A DNA stretch of 64,000 bases from Bacteroidota bacterium (GTDB lineage Bacteria; Bacteroidota; Bacteroidia; SXHM01): assembly GCA_947479755.1 (NCBI GenBank), contig CANKAM010000018.1:1-64000 (forward strand), given 5' to 3'. How positions within the stretch are numbered: the first letter of the stretch is position 1; every line of letters begins with the position of its first letter. A program made the translations under genes and the position numbers. The notes beneath the pieces are model-generated. The model was not told the DNA's origin and did not search any database. It saw only the letters and a program-made list of their open reading frames with translations. This document shows, piece after piece, positions 7,109 to 58,487 of the stretch.

Positions 7109-10100
7109 TTGAAACAATATAACCTCATCAACAACATAGCCGGCTGGCTCATCTTTGCCGTTGCTGCCTTCGTTTACATTTCTACCATTGAACCTACCGC
7201 AAGCTGGTGGGATTGCGGTGAATACATTTCTGCCTCTTATAAACTCATGGTTGGTCACGAGCCGGGTGCTCCTATGTTTCAGATGATAGCGCGCCTCTTC
7301 TCACTCCTTGCCGGTGATGATGTAACGCAGGTGGCCAAATGGGTAAACATTATGTCGGCACTGGCAAGTGCGTTCACTATTTTGTTTTTGTTCTGGAGTA
7401 TTACCGCTTTTGCAAAGAAGATGATTTTCAAAAACGGAGAATTTACCATGCCCGGAATGATTGCCGTAATAGGCAGCGGTGTGGTGGGTGCACTGGCTTA
7501 CACCTTCTCCGATTCATTCTGGTTTTCTGCTGTGGAAGGTGAGGTATATGCTATGTCATCGTTTTTTACCGCTATTGTTTTCTGGGCAATATTGAAGTGG
7601 GAAAGCCTTGCCGATAACCCTCATGCCGACAGATGGATAATACTTATCGCGCTTTTAATGGGTATGTCAATCGGTGTTCACTTACTGAATTTGCTGGCCA
7701 TTCCTGCGTTGGTTATTGTTTACTATTTCAAGAAATACGATTTCAGTATTCAGGGTTTTATTGCTGCACTCGGAGTCTCCGTTTTAATTCTGGTGGGCGT
7801 GCAATACGGTGTTATACCGGGAGTGGTAAAGCTGGCTTCTCTGTTTGAACTGTTGTTTGTAAACAGTTTTGGTTTGCCATTCAACAGCGGAGTGGTGTTC
7901 TATTTTATCCTGTTGATTTCAACAATTGTGTTTGGTATCTTGTACACACAAAAACATCAGAAACACATTGCCAACACCATCATTTTGGCGCTTACCTTTT
8001 TGTTGATTGGCTACAGTGCCTACTTCTTTTCTGTCATTCGCTCCAACGCCAATCCACCGATGGACGAGAGTAACCCCGACAATGTGTTTGCACTCATCAG
8101 CTACCTCAACCGTGAGCAGTATGGCGACCGTCCGTTGTTTAAAGGGCATTACTTCACCGCTAAAATGACCAAGACAGAAAAAGGCGGAAAGGTTTGGCAC
8201 AAAGGAAAAGACAAGTACGAAGTGGTGGAAGAAAAAACAATTCCTGTTTATGATTCACGCAACAGCGGAATTTTTCCGCGTATGTACAGTAATCAGGCGC
8301 ATCATATAACAGAGTATAAAAACTGGAGTGGAACGGATGGCAAACGTAAACCCACCATGTCTGAGAACATTAATTTCTTTGTTGATTATCAGCTCGGTCA
8401 CATGTATTTCCGCTATTTCATGTGGAATTTTGCAGGACGCCAAAATGATGTGCAGGGCAATGGTGCCGATGGAACAGGAGCAAGTGATTTGCTCAACGGC
8501 AACTGGATTTCAGGTATTCCATTTATTGACGAAGGGCGTCTTGGTCCGCAGGATAATCTTCCTGTTTCCATTACTTCCAACAAAGCCAACAACAAATTTT
8601 ACATGATTCCTTTTCTGCTTGGAATCATTGGTTTAATCGGACATTTCATGAAAGACAGAAAAGATTTTTTCGTGGTGATGTTGTTATTCATACTCACCGG
8701 TGTTGCCATTGTAGTTTACCTGAATCAGTATCCCTATCAGCCACGCGAACGGGATTATGCCTACGTAGGTTCGTTCTATGCATTCGCTATCTGGATCGGA
8801 CTTTCGGTTGCTGCTATTTACGATTGGATTTCACAAAAAGGCCCAGCTATTGCAGCAGCCGGAATTGGTGTTGCATTAGGACTTTCCGGTCCATACCTGA
8901 TGGCAAAAGATGGCTGGAATGATCACAACAGAAGCAACAGAACAGCAGCACGCGACCTTGCAGCTAACTATTTAAAAACCTGTGCGCCCAATGCCATTAT
9001 TTTCACCAACGGTGATAACGATACATTCCCGCTCTGGTATGCACAGGAAGTGGAAGGTATACGCACCGATGTGCGCGTTGTTAACCTCAGTCTTTTCAAC
9101 ACCAGTTGGTACATTGATCAGTTGCGCAGAAAAGCATATGAATCAGATCCGCTGCCGTTTTCTCTTGGTGAAGAAAAATTATTAGGCGACAGAAGATTGC
9201 AGCTTCCATTGGTTGACCGCAACATTCCTGGATATGTTGACTTGAAAAAAGTACTTGATTTTGTTTCACGTGATGACAAAGAATACAAGATTGCAACCAA
9301 TGGCGGTGATTTTAATTACATACCAACACACAAATTCCGCATCCCTGTTGATTCTGCAAAAGTAATGAGCAACGGAACTGTTTCTCTTGCCGATACAGCA
9401 GGCTTGGTTAAAGCAATTGAATGGGAAGTGGAAGACAATTACATCACCCGCAATCACCTGATGATGCTGGATATTTTAGCCAACAATAACTGGGAGCGCC
9501 CCATTTATTTTGCAGTAACCGTAGGCGATGATTTATACCTGAACCTGCAGGATTATTTCCGTGTGGAAGGTTTTGCTTATCGTTTGGTTCCTGTTAAAAA
9601 TACACCAAGAGACGGACAAACAGGAACGGTTGCTTCCGACAAAATGTTCGACAACATGGTGAACAATTTTGCATGGGGTAACATGCTTGATTCAAATGTA
9701 TATCAGGGAACTGAAACGGTACGCATGAGCATGAACTACCGCAACATGTTTGCACGTCTTGCCTTTTCACTTTTTGACGAAGGAAAAAAAGAAGAGGCTA
9801 TAAAAACAATTGATAAATGTCTGGAACAAATTCCGGCTTCTTCCATTGAATTTAATTTTTCGGCACTGCCTTTAATGGAAGCTTACTACCGTTTTGGTGA
9901 AAATGAAAAGGCAAATAAAATAGCGGAGAAGATGGCAGATATCTACAGCCGTGAAATGGATTACTATAGTTCTCTTCCACTTGAATTTGCACAACGAACC
10001 GGCAAGCAGCCGCGTATTGCCTTTTCTGTATTGCAGCGTTTGGTGCAGATTACCGGCACCTACAAACAAGACGAACTAAATGCGCGTTTGAAAAAAATGT

Positions 10101-55356: not shown

Positions 55357-56265
55357 TTACATAATCTCTACCTCATAACTCTGCTGATTAGGACCTTGGT
55401 TCTGCACATTAAAGTATGCACGAAACTCAGCAGCAGTAAGAATTATGGTAGCTTCCTGACCGGGATTAAGGTTTTGACCTATTCCGCTCCATCCATCAGT
55501 TGGGCTCATGGCGGTGTAGAAATACAAACCGCCAATTGCAGGACCGGTAGTAGTGTTTTTAATCCTTAATGTTACTCCCGCAACATACTGTGTTACGGTT
55601 GGATTAAGCACATTTACTATCTGTCCGCTACCGATAAAACCATCAAAAATCAAATCTGCTGTATCGGAAATGCTTCCGCGCAAGGTTTCCAAATCATAGA
55701 AGTTAGCTATCTGTATGCTGTTGGCACTGAAAATCTGCATCAGTCCGCCCAGCGTGTAATACATAGCCTGCGCAATGGTTACCCGCGCCAGTTCCACTTC
55801 TTCACTAAGGGTTTGTTTCAATCCTTCCAGGCCCTGCTGCTGATCGCGGGCGGTGGTGAGCTGAAGCAGAAAAGCATCTACATCGGTTTTTACCGCAGCC
55901 AATACAACTATACCCGTTAAACTCTCGCTCAGCGTACCCAAGGCAGTTATGCGCTCGTCATACTCACCGCTTTGAAACGGTATTCTGAAATTAGGAAGCA
56001 ATGCAGCATATTGTGCTGTTCCCCTTTTAAAAAGCACCTGAATGCGGATGTCAAAATCCTCAATCATGGTACTGCTTAGTTGTGCAATAAGCTGTTCAAA
56101 GTTCACGGTAGCTCCGTGGTAAGCCGCAACGGTGCTTTTCCATTGCGTGTATTTTGCCAGATACATCAGCCTTATCGCATGAAAGAAACTGAATAATACA
56201 GCTATAAGCGGATTGCCTATCTGCGCATGCAGTTTGCTGTCGTGGTCAGAAGAAATGATGTTCAT
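55357..56265 (-). CDS. hypothetical protein (helical N-half, beta C-half)
   Basis: This is a 302-residue protein with no signal peptide, and I do not recognise the family. Residues about 1-190 are mainly helical (HAQIGNPLIAVLFSFFHAIR, VELARVTIAQAMYYTLGGLM). Residues about 205-302 are beta-rich with many Gly, Thr and Asn (GVTLRIKNTTTGPAIGGLYF, GQEATIILTAAEFRAYFNV). The two-part plan is similar in style to the 24560-25489 protein, but I see no clear homology. The region upstream of its start holds an inverted repeat (56364-56387) and the 41-bp palindromic array. Confidence 0.6.
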   Translation of the reverse strand: MNIISSDHDSKLHAQIGNPLIAVLFSFFHAIRLMYLAKYTQWKSTVAAYHGATVNFEQLIAQLSSTMIEDFDIRIQVLFKRGTAQYAALLPNFRIPFQSGEYDERITALGTLSESLTGIVVLAAVKTDVDAFLLQLTTARDQQQGLEGLKQTLSEEVELARVTIAQAMYYTLGGLMQIFSANSIQIANFYDLETLRGSISDTADLIFDGFIGSGQIVNVLNPTVTQYVAGVTLRIKNTTTGPAIGGLYFYTAMSPTDGWSGIGQNLNPGQEATIILTAAEFRAYFNVQNQGPNQQSYEVEIM

Positions 56266-56363
56266 CTTCTTTTTGCTGTTTTTGGTGCCGTTATCGAATT
56301 GATTTTCGGTAGGCGACCATGTTTGTGTACTCCTTTTGTTTTTGTTTTTTTAGTTAATAATGA

Positions 56364-56387
56364 AGCGTTAATTAATCTGATAACGCT
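56364..56387. promoter_or_regulatory. inverted repeat upstream of the 55357-56265 gene
   Basis: AGCGTTA (56364-56370) and TAACGCT (56381-56387) form perfect 7-bp arms with a 10-bp spacer. It lies about 100 bp upstream of the ATG at 56265 and could be an operator. Confidence 0.35.
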
Positions 56388-56456
56388 ATTTTGATGCTGC
56401 ATATTGTGCTACTCCATAAATTTTAACAGATTTTAACAATTGCTATTGAAAAAGGG

Positions 56457-56763
56457 CCTCCGTAACCGTTACGGCAGCACTTTGCATTGTCCGATTGCCT
56501 CCGTAACTGTTACGGCACGACTTTGCATTGTCCGATTACCTCCGTAACCGTTACGGTATGACTTTGTATTGTCCGATTGCCTCCGTAACCGTTACGGTAA
56601 GACTTCGGATTAAAGGATTAGCACCGTAACCGTTACGGCATGACTTCGGATTAAGACATTACCTCCGTAACCGTTACGGTATGACTTTGCATTGTCCGAT
56701 TGCCTCCGTAACCGTTACGGTGAGACTTTGGATTAAGAGATTACCACTGTGGTCGCCACGGTA
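56457..56763. repeat. 41-bp tandem array of palindromic units (8 copies)
   Basis: The palindrome CCGTAAC-C-GTTACGG starts at 56460, 56501, 56542, 56583, 56624, 56665 and 56706, exactly 41 bp apart each time, with one base change in unit 2. Each is followed by a similar 26-bp spacer (TATGACTTTGCATTGTCCGA or a variant ending GGATTAA). An eighth unit at 56747-56761 reads CTGTGGTCGCCACGG. Both arms have changed together, so its stem is kept. Spacers are alike, so this is not a CRISPR array. It lies directly upstream of a REP-associated transposase gene. Confidence 0.9.
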
Positions 56764-56777
56764 AGGTTTGCGCAGCT

Positions 56778-56800
56778 GGCGCGAGCGTCCCGCTCGTGCC
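56778..56800. repeat. REP-like hairpin upstream of the RAYT
   Basis: The arms GGCGCGAGCG and CGCTCGTGCC pair over 10 positions (one G-T wobble) around the loop TCC. It immediately precedes the transposase promoter, as flanking REP hairpins do in RAYT units. Confidence 0.7.
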
Positions 56801-56809
56801 GTTTATTGC

Positions 56810-56842
56810 TTTGCCTCGGGCAAATTATATTTTTTAGCTTTG
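56810..56842 (+). promoter_or_regulatory. canonical promoter of the RAYT gene
   Basis: TTTG (56810-56813), a 21-bp spacer and TAGCTTTG (56835-56842) match the Bacteroidota consensus. The ATG at 56847 is only 4 bp further on, so the message is probably leaderless. Confidence 0.65.
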
Positions 56843-56846
56843 CTAC

Positions 56847-57383
56847 ATGTCAGAAAAATACAAAACCTACGAGGGCAGTGTATATTATGTAACACTAACG
56901 GTGGTTGGCTGGATTGATATTTTTACCCGAAAAGAGTATGTATATGAACTGATGAAAAACATACAATATTGTCAACAAAATAAAGGTCTTGAATTGTATG
57001 CATATGTAATTATGCCAAATCACCTTCATTGGATAGCAAGAGCTGAGGAAGGCAGATTGAGCGAAATATTACGCGATTTTAAAAGCTATACCGCTAAAGT
57101 ATTAATTGATATGGTTGACAAACATCAGGGCGAAAGCCGCAGAGAATGGCTGATGTATATGTTCCGCTATTTCGGGAAATACAATAACCAGAATAAGGAG
57201 TTTCAGTTTTGGCAGCAACACAACCATCCAATAGAGTTGTGGAGTGAGGATGTGATTAAACAGAAAATAGCCTACTTGCATAACAATCCGGTGAAAGCAG
57301 GATTTGTTGCTGAACCGCATCATTGGTTATACAGCAGTGGAAATGAGTTTAGTGAAATAAAAGTGTTGGATGCTAATGTATAG
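56847..57383 (+). CDS. REP-associated tyrosine transposase (Y1, RAYT)
   Basis: This is a 178-residue single-strand DNA transposase of the IS200/REP-associated type. The HUH metal motif is PNHLH (H59 and H61). The probable nucleophile is Y143 in IAYLHNNPVKAG, the typical YxHxNP box. The family start (YKTYEGSVYYVTLTVVGWI) and end (HHWLYSSGNEF) are present, so it looks complete. RAYTs cut and join REP hairpins and are thought to spread them through genomes while staying single-copy themselves. Strong hairpins flank it on both sides and a palindromic array lies upstream. Downstream it runs into a truncated T9SS gene, which suggests the element landed in that gene. Confidence 0.88.
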   Translation: MSEKYKTYEGSVYYVTLTVVGWIDIFTRKEYVYELMKNIQYCQQNKGLELYAYVIMPNHLHWIARAEEGRLSEILRDFKSYTAKVLIDMVDKHQGESRREWLMYMFRYFGKYNNQNKEFQFWQQHNHPIELWSEDVIKQKIAYLHNNPVKAGFVAEPHHWLYSSGNEFSEIKVLDANV

Positions 57384-57393
57384 AAACAGCGTG

Positions 57394-57442
57394 TTGTCGG
57401 GGACGACAAATAATAGACGACACGAGGCAAGAGCCTCGCGTC
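57394..57442. repeat. REP-like hairpins downstream of the RAYT
   Basis: Two hairpins are present. TTGTCG-GGGA-CGACAA lies at 57394-57409. A longer one (57419-57442) has outer GAC/GTC, one A-C mismatch, inner CGAGGC/GCCTCG and loop AAGA. The second resembles the upstream hairpin in its CGAG core and marks the other side of the probable RAYT unit. Confidence 0.7.
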
Positions 57443-57471
57443 TGCTATGCGCAATACGCTCGCGGGTGCGG

Positions 57472-58020
57472 GGTACAATTTTTGGCAGCGCCACATTTGG
57501 CGGCACATCTATTAATACCAGTGGTTATGAGCATGCCTTTCTTGCACGCTATGACTCTACCGGTGATTGTATTGGGTTTAACCAGATTGAAGAAGGAAGA
57601 TCGTACGCACAAGCTCTTACCATAAATAAGTCAACAGGCGAATGCATTATTGGTGGGTTTTCTACTGATACGCTTACTTTTTATCCTTTGATACAAAAGG
57701 ATGCTTTCATTGCAAAACACGATTTGATTACCGGTATGCCCAGCAACAAAACAGATGAAACAGGTAACGAGCTATTTATTTATGCTAACCCAAACAAGGG
57801 GGCGTTTAATGTAAAAGTACCGCAAGAACTAACTAACCTGAATAATGCAATGCTATATATATATGATAGCAACGGAAAAGAAACAGCACATTTTAAAATG
57901 GATGATTTCAACTCAGGGCAAACACCATTCTTTGATATTACTTATACTGCAAAAGGCATGTATACGGTAAAGCTTGTTAAAGAAGGGAAAGCTTACACAG
58001 GTAAAATTGTTATTGAATAA
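57472..58020 (+). pseudogene. 3' fragment of an SBBP-repeat T9SS protein
   Basis: Homologous-looking sequence begins abruptly at about 57472 with GTIFGSATFGGTSIN, a partial SBBP beta-propeller repeat. It continues through HAFLARYDSTGDC and IIGGFSTDTLTFYP, and ends in a T9SS sorting domain (LFIYANPNKGAF to YTGKIVIE). There is no signal peptide. The preceding codons back to 57370 are made of RAYT-flanking repeat sequence. The 5' part of the gene is not found upstream of the RAYT. Insertion or deletion at the RAYT side probably destroyed it, and the fragment should not be exported. Confidence 0.7.
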
Positions 58021-58112: not shown

Positions 58113-58487
58113 TTAATTCTGCTTCGCAGCCCCGCTCACCATACTGATTGATTTGGTAACCAAATCAGTTTCGGTTTGCAACTGATAAAAATACTGACCG
58201 GGAGCAAGTGTTGAAATATCATACGTTTCGTTGTACTCACCTGCTGTGCGGTTGCCGGCAAATAAAACTTTACCCACGCTGCCGTCAACACTGAAAATCA
58301 TCAGTTTCACAGGCGTATTTTGCGGAAGTTGGTAATTAATAGTTATAGAAGAAGAGGAAGGGTTAGGAAAAGCCGTTAATTTAAACTGGTCGTCACCATT
58401 GTTTTGCGACAAAGCAGGTCTGGCTGTTATTGCATTCATAAAAAATGCAGAGAACAGAATTAAGGTATAGGTTTTAATGTTGAACAT
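58113..58487 (-). CDS. small secreted protein consisting mainly of a T9SS sorting domain
   Basis: This is a 124-residue protein. The signal peptide covers about residues 1-28 (FNIKTYTLILFSAFFMNAIT). Little lies between it and a type A sorting domain starting at KLTAFPNPSSSSITI and running through APGQYFYQLQTE to KSISMVSGAAKQN. It is thus nearly a bare sorting domain with no cargo part. It could be a remnant of a larger cargo gene or a small surface protein. The start ATG at 58487 is clear, and a strong terminator follows the stop. Confidence 0.75.
   Translation of the reverse strand: MFNIKTYTLILFSAFFMNAITARPALSQNNGDDQFKLTAFPNPSSSSITINYQLPQNTPVKLMIFSVDGSVGKVLFAGNRTAGEYNETYDISTLAPGQYFYQLQTETDLVTKSISMVSGAAKQN

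Follow-up and report, generated by a model that had tools for sequence, protein, structure and literature searches.

A RAYT element and an apparently undescribed 41-bp palindromic array are independent neighbours in a Bacteroidota genome

The window, meaning the whole 64,000-nucleotide stretch of Bacteroidota DNA that was analysed, carries two independent features side by side, a RAYT (REP-associated tyrosine transposase) element on the + strand at about 56775-57473 and an array of 41-bp palindromic units at 56460-56761. As judged from its sequence, the former is an ordinary REP-type element with a subclass 2.6 RAYT, a Y1 HUH transposase. The array is the more unusual of the two, and belongs to a family, recognised by a 15-base palindrome every 41 bases and scattered in several Bacteroidota chromosomes, that is apparently undescribed. 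The reading that we consider probable is that this subclass 2.6 RAYT element lies next to, and independently of, a member of a family of helically phased minisatellites with palindromes, which would be maintained for an architectural role at the level of DNA.

The RAYT gene (56847-57383, + strand) encodes 178 amino acids and was assigned to the subclass 2.6 / group 5 type from profile matches and motifs. Its product scores 108 bits with the NCBIfam model for REP-associated tyrosine transposases (NF047646), for which the cut-off is 80, and 27.4 with Pfam Y1_Tnp (cut-off 23). The HUH histidines H59 and H61 lie within NHLH (N58-H61), the WQ motif is formed by W122-Q123, Y143 lies within YLHNNP at a distance of 82 from H61, and an SS motif is also present. 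The complete Y1 transposase with these catalytic residues that had been read earlier from the sequence is therefore borne out. Subclass 2.6 corresponds to RAYT group 5, is hosted mainly by Bacteroidota, and has atypical flanking hairpins that are copied elsewhere (PMC6006769). The window RAYT shares with it the NHLH, WQ and YLHNNP motifs and the SS after the core, and is close to it in length (178 versus 179 amino acids) and in the HUH-to-Y distance (82 versus a median of 82); the published motif NH[LIV]H, WQ, YIH[QN]NP is fitted with L for I in YLHNNP. The Bacteroidota host and the atypical hairpin flanks with few copies elsewhere are also alike (PMC6006769), and in the features compared the element differs from this subclass in nothing essential. 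A further mark of the subclass is a 21-aa insertion between helix C and strand 4. Given the fit of motifs, length and the spacing of 82, this RAYT belongs to an already known kind.

The extent of the element was defined by the boundaries of solo copies and by alignment with two related genomes, G001 and G003. The left end (56775-56833) includes a hairpin at 56778-56800 and a small hairpin at 56810-56824, and the right end (57392-57473) includes hairpins at 57394-57409 and 57419-57442 and terminates outwards in ...CGCTCGCGGGTGCGGGG, which confirms the preliminary description of a RAYT bracketed by hairpins. The left boundary at 56775 was set by solo copies on contig C19 of this genome (89%), C10 of G001 (95%) and C18 of G002, each of which begins with GCTGGCGCGAG. 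At the other side, G001 is 99.9% identical over 56006-57473 and diverges beyond, and the match with G003, which is of the same genus and carries the element at 81% over 56783-57472, ends at 57472. Copies of the right end were found on C31 of this genome, C12 of G001, C82 of G005 and C19 of G002. This genome has one strong full-length match to the element, with weaker family matches elsewhere. Its left end has a single further copy here and its right end a single partial one; more are present in relatives. The genome search for further copies of the flanking hairpins, which had been proposed as a check, thus returned a few for each end in this genome and its relatives. The hairpin ends would serve as the REP-like substrates of the RAYT, with solo copies being rare.

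The left-end copy on C10 of G001 sits in an insertion of ~190 bp relative to the window (7349-7562 of locus L144 versus 58113-58128 of the window). By eye, this insertion carries, besides the left end, an inverted right-end-like sequence, and copies of a 10-bp repeat, TTAATTCTGC, flank it; in this it resembles a miniature element of the REPIN type. Next to several of the right-end copies (L148, L149 and L150) and one array edge (L040) are hairpins of a second family, with the sequence GGTCGGGATTGCAAATCCCGACC or a similar one. Shortly before the left end of the G003 element, there is a tandem, non-coding-looking repeat with steps of about 21-22 bp (L145).

The RAYT had also been described as having its own consensus promoter. 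In a scan for promoters of the sigma-70 type, promoter-like sites were no more frequent than in shuffled sequences. A candidate promoter, TTTG-N21-TAGCTTTG (56810-56842, + strand), was read from the sequence inside the left end of the element, with TTTG at 56810 and TAGCTTTG at 56835; this pair would be of the Bacteroidota type.

The sequence following the element was found, as described before, to be a T9SS gene without its 5' part directly downstream of the RAYT. The 3' part of this sorting-domain gene (57474-58020, + strand; Por_Secre_tail / TIGR04183) is in frame with the right end, and the ORF that includes it, 57370-58020, carries a C-terminal T9SS sorting domain at residues 137-215. As this ORF begins inside the RAYT, its T9SS part is 5'-truncated. 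The right end of the element in G001 adjoins another 5'-truncated T9SS-type gene, the tail of which was recognised by eye, and that in G003 is in frame with a short T9SS-type C-terminal fragment (also by eye; L145). In all three elements looked at, those of this genome, G001 and G003, the right end thus runs in a single open frame into a 5'-truncated T9SS gene, and the gene differs each time; this recurrence may reflect no more than how abundant such genes are. Since the junctions of the window and G001 have the left flank in common and not the right, the right side has been remade at least once since the two diverged. The junction formed here would be prone to recombination. A solo right end in G002 (L152) likewise precedes a T9SS-like tail, as recognised by eye.

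The array itself agrees with the eight 41-bp palindromic units reported directly upstream of the RAYT. It comprises seven exact copies of CCGTAACNGTTACGG and a degenerate eighth, CTGTGGTCGCCACGG, at steps of exactly 41 bp, each unit consisting of a 15-nt palindrome (6-bp stem, 3-nt loop) and a 26-nt spacer, and TRF gives the same period of 41. A coding repeat was rejected, as every reading frame is interrupted across 56460-56761, and no Rfam family matches the array. The gene that has the array upstream of it (55357-56265, - strand) encodes 302 amino acids without a Pfam match, and its paralogue on C24 and its homologue in G006 likewise have an array upstream. Members of this 300-aa family without a Pfam match were thus seen with a 41-bp array upstream at three of three places (55357-56265, L017:6216-7193 and L040).

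The preliminary description had further suggested that the array beside the RAYT may show how REPs are generated or stored. The two adjoin both here and in the near-identical G001, as such a role would predict, but the proposal was not borne out. An exact search of this genome for CCGTAACNGTTACGG returned 29 sites, all within arrays (0 with reversed-pattern controls), and the contigs carrying its other arrays (C24, C35, C49 and C3) have no NF047646 match; C18, the contig of the window, is the only one with such a match that also carries an array. The RAYT element of G003 is on contig C4, apart from the arrays on C1 and C2. Arrays without a RAYT match, which had been named as evidence against the link, are found in Saprospira grandis Lewin, where at least five arrays of the family are accompanied by no NF047646 match. 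Furthermore, no sequence evidently common to the array palindrome and either of the RAYT hairpins was seen, and there are essentially no solitary palindromes, as REPs would show, in this genome or in S. grandis. The identification of the array as the REP family of this RAYT was rejected on these grounds, with neither dispersed solitary or paired copies nor, in S. grandis, a RAYT match alongside the repeat, and a store or factory of REPs for the neighbouring enzyme is scarcely credible. For REP research, this is a caution that a RAYT beside a palindromic array is no proof of a link.

At least five arrays, all intergenic, are present in this genome, and array counts per genome are lower bounds. 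Four of them (C18 in the window, C24, C35 and C49) contain CCGTAACNGTTACGG exactly, and the fifth, on C3, has the variant stem CCATAA/TTATGG. Of the palindrome sites, 38 here and 48 in S. grandis, those that were placed lie in arrays, barring one imperfect S. grandis site. Pattern scans built on the CCGT/ACGG stem, with true arrays judged among about 395 Bacteroidia genomes, identified the family in this genus, S. grandis, the MAGs RH-23may17-600 and LJ_bin-3609, one Ignavibacteria MAG and genome G243, and these scans gave no other clear case among the Bacteroidia genomes. Matches from a GTDB scan in Phycisphaerales, Salinicoccus, Planctomycetota, Clostridiales and Lentisphaeria (L038, L042, L050, L052 and L055) were rejected as being without the CCGTRR/YYACGG stem and the adjoining motif, and one in Thermoanaerobaculia (L046) was set aside as a dispersed REP with variable spacing. 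Phage or plasmid sequence was rejected as the identity of the window array, given that the family pattern is absent from 2.9 million viral contigs and that the sequence of this array has no match in phage or plasmid records.

Like the REP, BIME and REPIN sequences (PMC3733652, PMC3116915), the arrays consist of short intergenic palindromes. They differ in that the 41-bp palindromes are found only in rigid tandem arrays, in that the family has no RAYT partner in S. grandis, and in that the stem is replaceable. BrickBuilt, a minisatellite-MITE of Porphyromonas gingivalis, is also a tandem intergenic repeat with several copies per Bacteroidota genome (PMC4596501). However, BrickBuilt has a 23-nt unit without spacers and a leader and tail with inverted ends (PMC4596501), whereas the units of the present family are 41 bp long and include a palindrome, and its arrays share neither leader nor tail. 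A MITE of this kind was rejected, as the array edges listed for 21 loci revealed neither a common leader or tail nor common terminal inverted repeats. CRISPR arrays are similar in having regularly spaced palindromic repeats with spacers of constant length, but the spacers here are variants of one family sequence and not unique. This, and the finding that none of the adjacent genes scanned has a Pfam match to a cas family, led to the rejection of a CRISPR array; an apparent CRISPR array in S. grandis has periods of 69-74. In the open-licence literature, no published description of the family was found, an absence that is weak evidence of novelty, and the works nearest to palindromic or phased Bacteroidota arrays are REP surveys (PMC3733652) and that on BrickBuilt (PMC4596501).

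Several of the S. grandis arrays and the Ignavibacteria array have half palindromes at both ends. This would be expected if an array were a multimer of a miniature mobile element, a 26-nt core between 6-bp inverted repeats, whose copies are joined across target duplications of 3 nt. Such ends are not general among the arrays of this genus, and a target-site duplication at the array edges, suggested in S. grandis, was rejected as not general. Solitary insertions were not found, and neither the viral contigs nor the phage and plasmid records gave a match, which together make a mobile multimer highly unlikely.

The spacing of the family is nearly invariant. Among the 163 steps counted in 22 arrays from five lineages, 162 measure 41 bp and the remaining one 42. 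With gaps of 11-41 nt allowed, the palindrome pairs of this genus, among those listed, always have a gap of 26 nt, as do all but one of those listed for S. grandis, G101 and G102. By contrast, the spacers have accumulated at least 457 substitutions, as counted from minimum spanning trees. A period unbroken against this number of substitutions suggests a constraint on spacing, to which homogenisation could contribute.

Pairing within the stem is also retained. Stem positions 5 and 6 are paired in 92.4% of units, compared with 49.7% (maximum 61%) after shuffling, though units within one array are related, so that the shuffles overstate significance and give no clean probability. The same two positions alternate between A-T and G-C in step, a covariation. 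Positions 5-6 are mismatched or wobble-paired in some units of G101 and G102, and so is position 5 in the majority of G102 units. In most lineages, a one-sided motif was recognised by eye next to the palindrome, ATTRSCT before it or, on the other strand, ARSYAAT after it.

Covariation of this kind would also be expected if the arrays functioned as RNA within untranslated regions, 3' or 5', where serial hairpins would act in mRNA stability or termination, and several arrays do lie directly 3' of stop codons (C49 and C24 of this genome, C2 of G003). However, the neighbours of the arrays are diverse genes, mostly housekeeping or secretion-related, and relative to them some arrays are in sense, whereas others are antisense or separate two divergent genes, which argues against an RNA of fixed strand. 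The G-T wobbles, examined as a guide to the functional strand, have no consistent strand bias, and hairpins in RNA are not expected to need an exact spacing of 41 nt. An RNA function is therefore unlikely.

The C35 array lies between aminotransferase and ketopantoate reductase genes. At the orthologous locus, G003 has seven 41-bp units in which the stem, TTGGCA/TGCCAA, is wholly different and the spacer, CGTTAATCCC..., is similar to the local one. In G001 and G004 the array is absent, and there is almost no intergenic DNA. The replacement of the stem with the 41-bp layout kept indicates that the family is defined by its architecture and that scans built on CCGT/ACGG undercount it. The G003 array could also have arisen independently, at a site that favours new arrays. 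A REP-like 40-mer, CTCCCTCTCCCTCGGAGAGGGTTGGGGTGAGG, lies inside the ApbA reading frame (L018:6890-6929) and has many matches in most relatives of the genus.

The main rival to a DNA-level function is neutral satellite turnover with template-switch repair, in which slippage amplifies the units, template switching perfects the palindromes and the host gains nothing. Orthologous loci with 16, 6, 13 and 3 units, and the missing C35 array of G001 and G004, are as expected from such turnover. Template-switch correction of quasi-palindromes could keep the arms matched without selection, and recombinational homogenisation can remove indels. Against it stand the single length change among at least 457 spacer substitutions, the equal period and one-sided motif of distant lineages, and a bias of minisatellites towards in-phase periods (see below). 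We regard a neutral satellite as possible but doubtful.

In the DNA-level reading that we favour, the units would expand and be homogenised through slippage or unequal recombination, and the arrays would persist because dyads on one helix face, 41 bp being about four turns, act at the level of DNA, either by binding a dimeric protein or by extruding hairpins. The period of 41, the stem pairing and the one-sided motif have been kept, whereas the spacer has largely changed, as has the entire stem at one locus. It is only tentatively suggested that the arrays represent a class of Bacteroidota DNA-architecture elements, chromosomal and intergenic, with dyads exactly four turns apart and a swappable stem. 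Conserved spacing and self-complementarity with such a stem would imply that no fixed sequence is recognised, but the shape of a cruciform or hairpin, or dyads that co-evolve. If the phasing and the stem swaps are selected, it is by shape and geometry, not by sequence, that this chromosomal element would be recognised, and motif searches would miss such arrays. As the genus has orthologous loci with the array present, absent and stem-swapped, function could be tested by comparison and simple deletion.

The period bias was assessed in 864 kb of DNA from this genus and 400 kb from S. grandis, with 740 kb from other Bacteroidia as controls. Of the 28 non-coding-like tandem arrays in the first two sets, 24 have a period that deviates by no more than 1 bp from a multiple of 21, versus 4 of 10 in the controls (Fisher p = 0.01), in a small sample that includes the window array by selection and in which non-coding status was judged from reading frames only. 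With 162 of 163 steps at 41 bp, the arrays thus have the whole-turn period without indels of a phased minisatellite. Further intergenic-like minisatellites with periods of 21, 41 or 42, some with palindromes of their own, were observed in this genome and S. grandis (L193:365-577, L209:3126-3367, L236, L244, L248 and L251).
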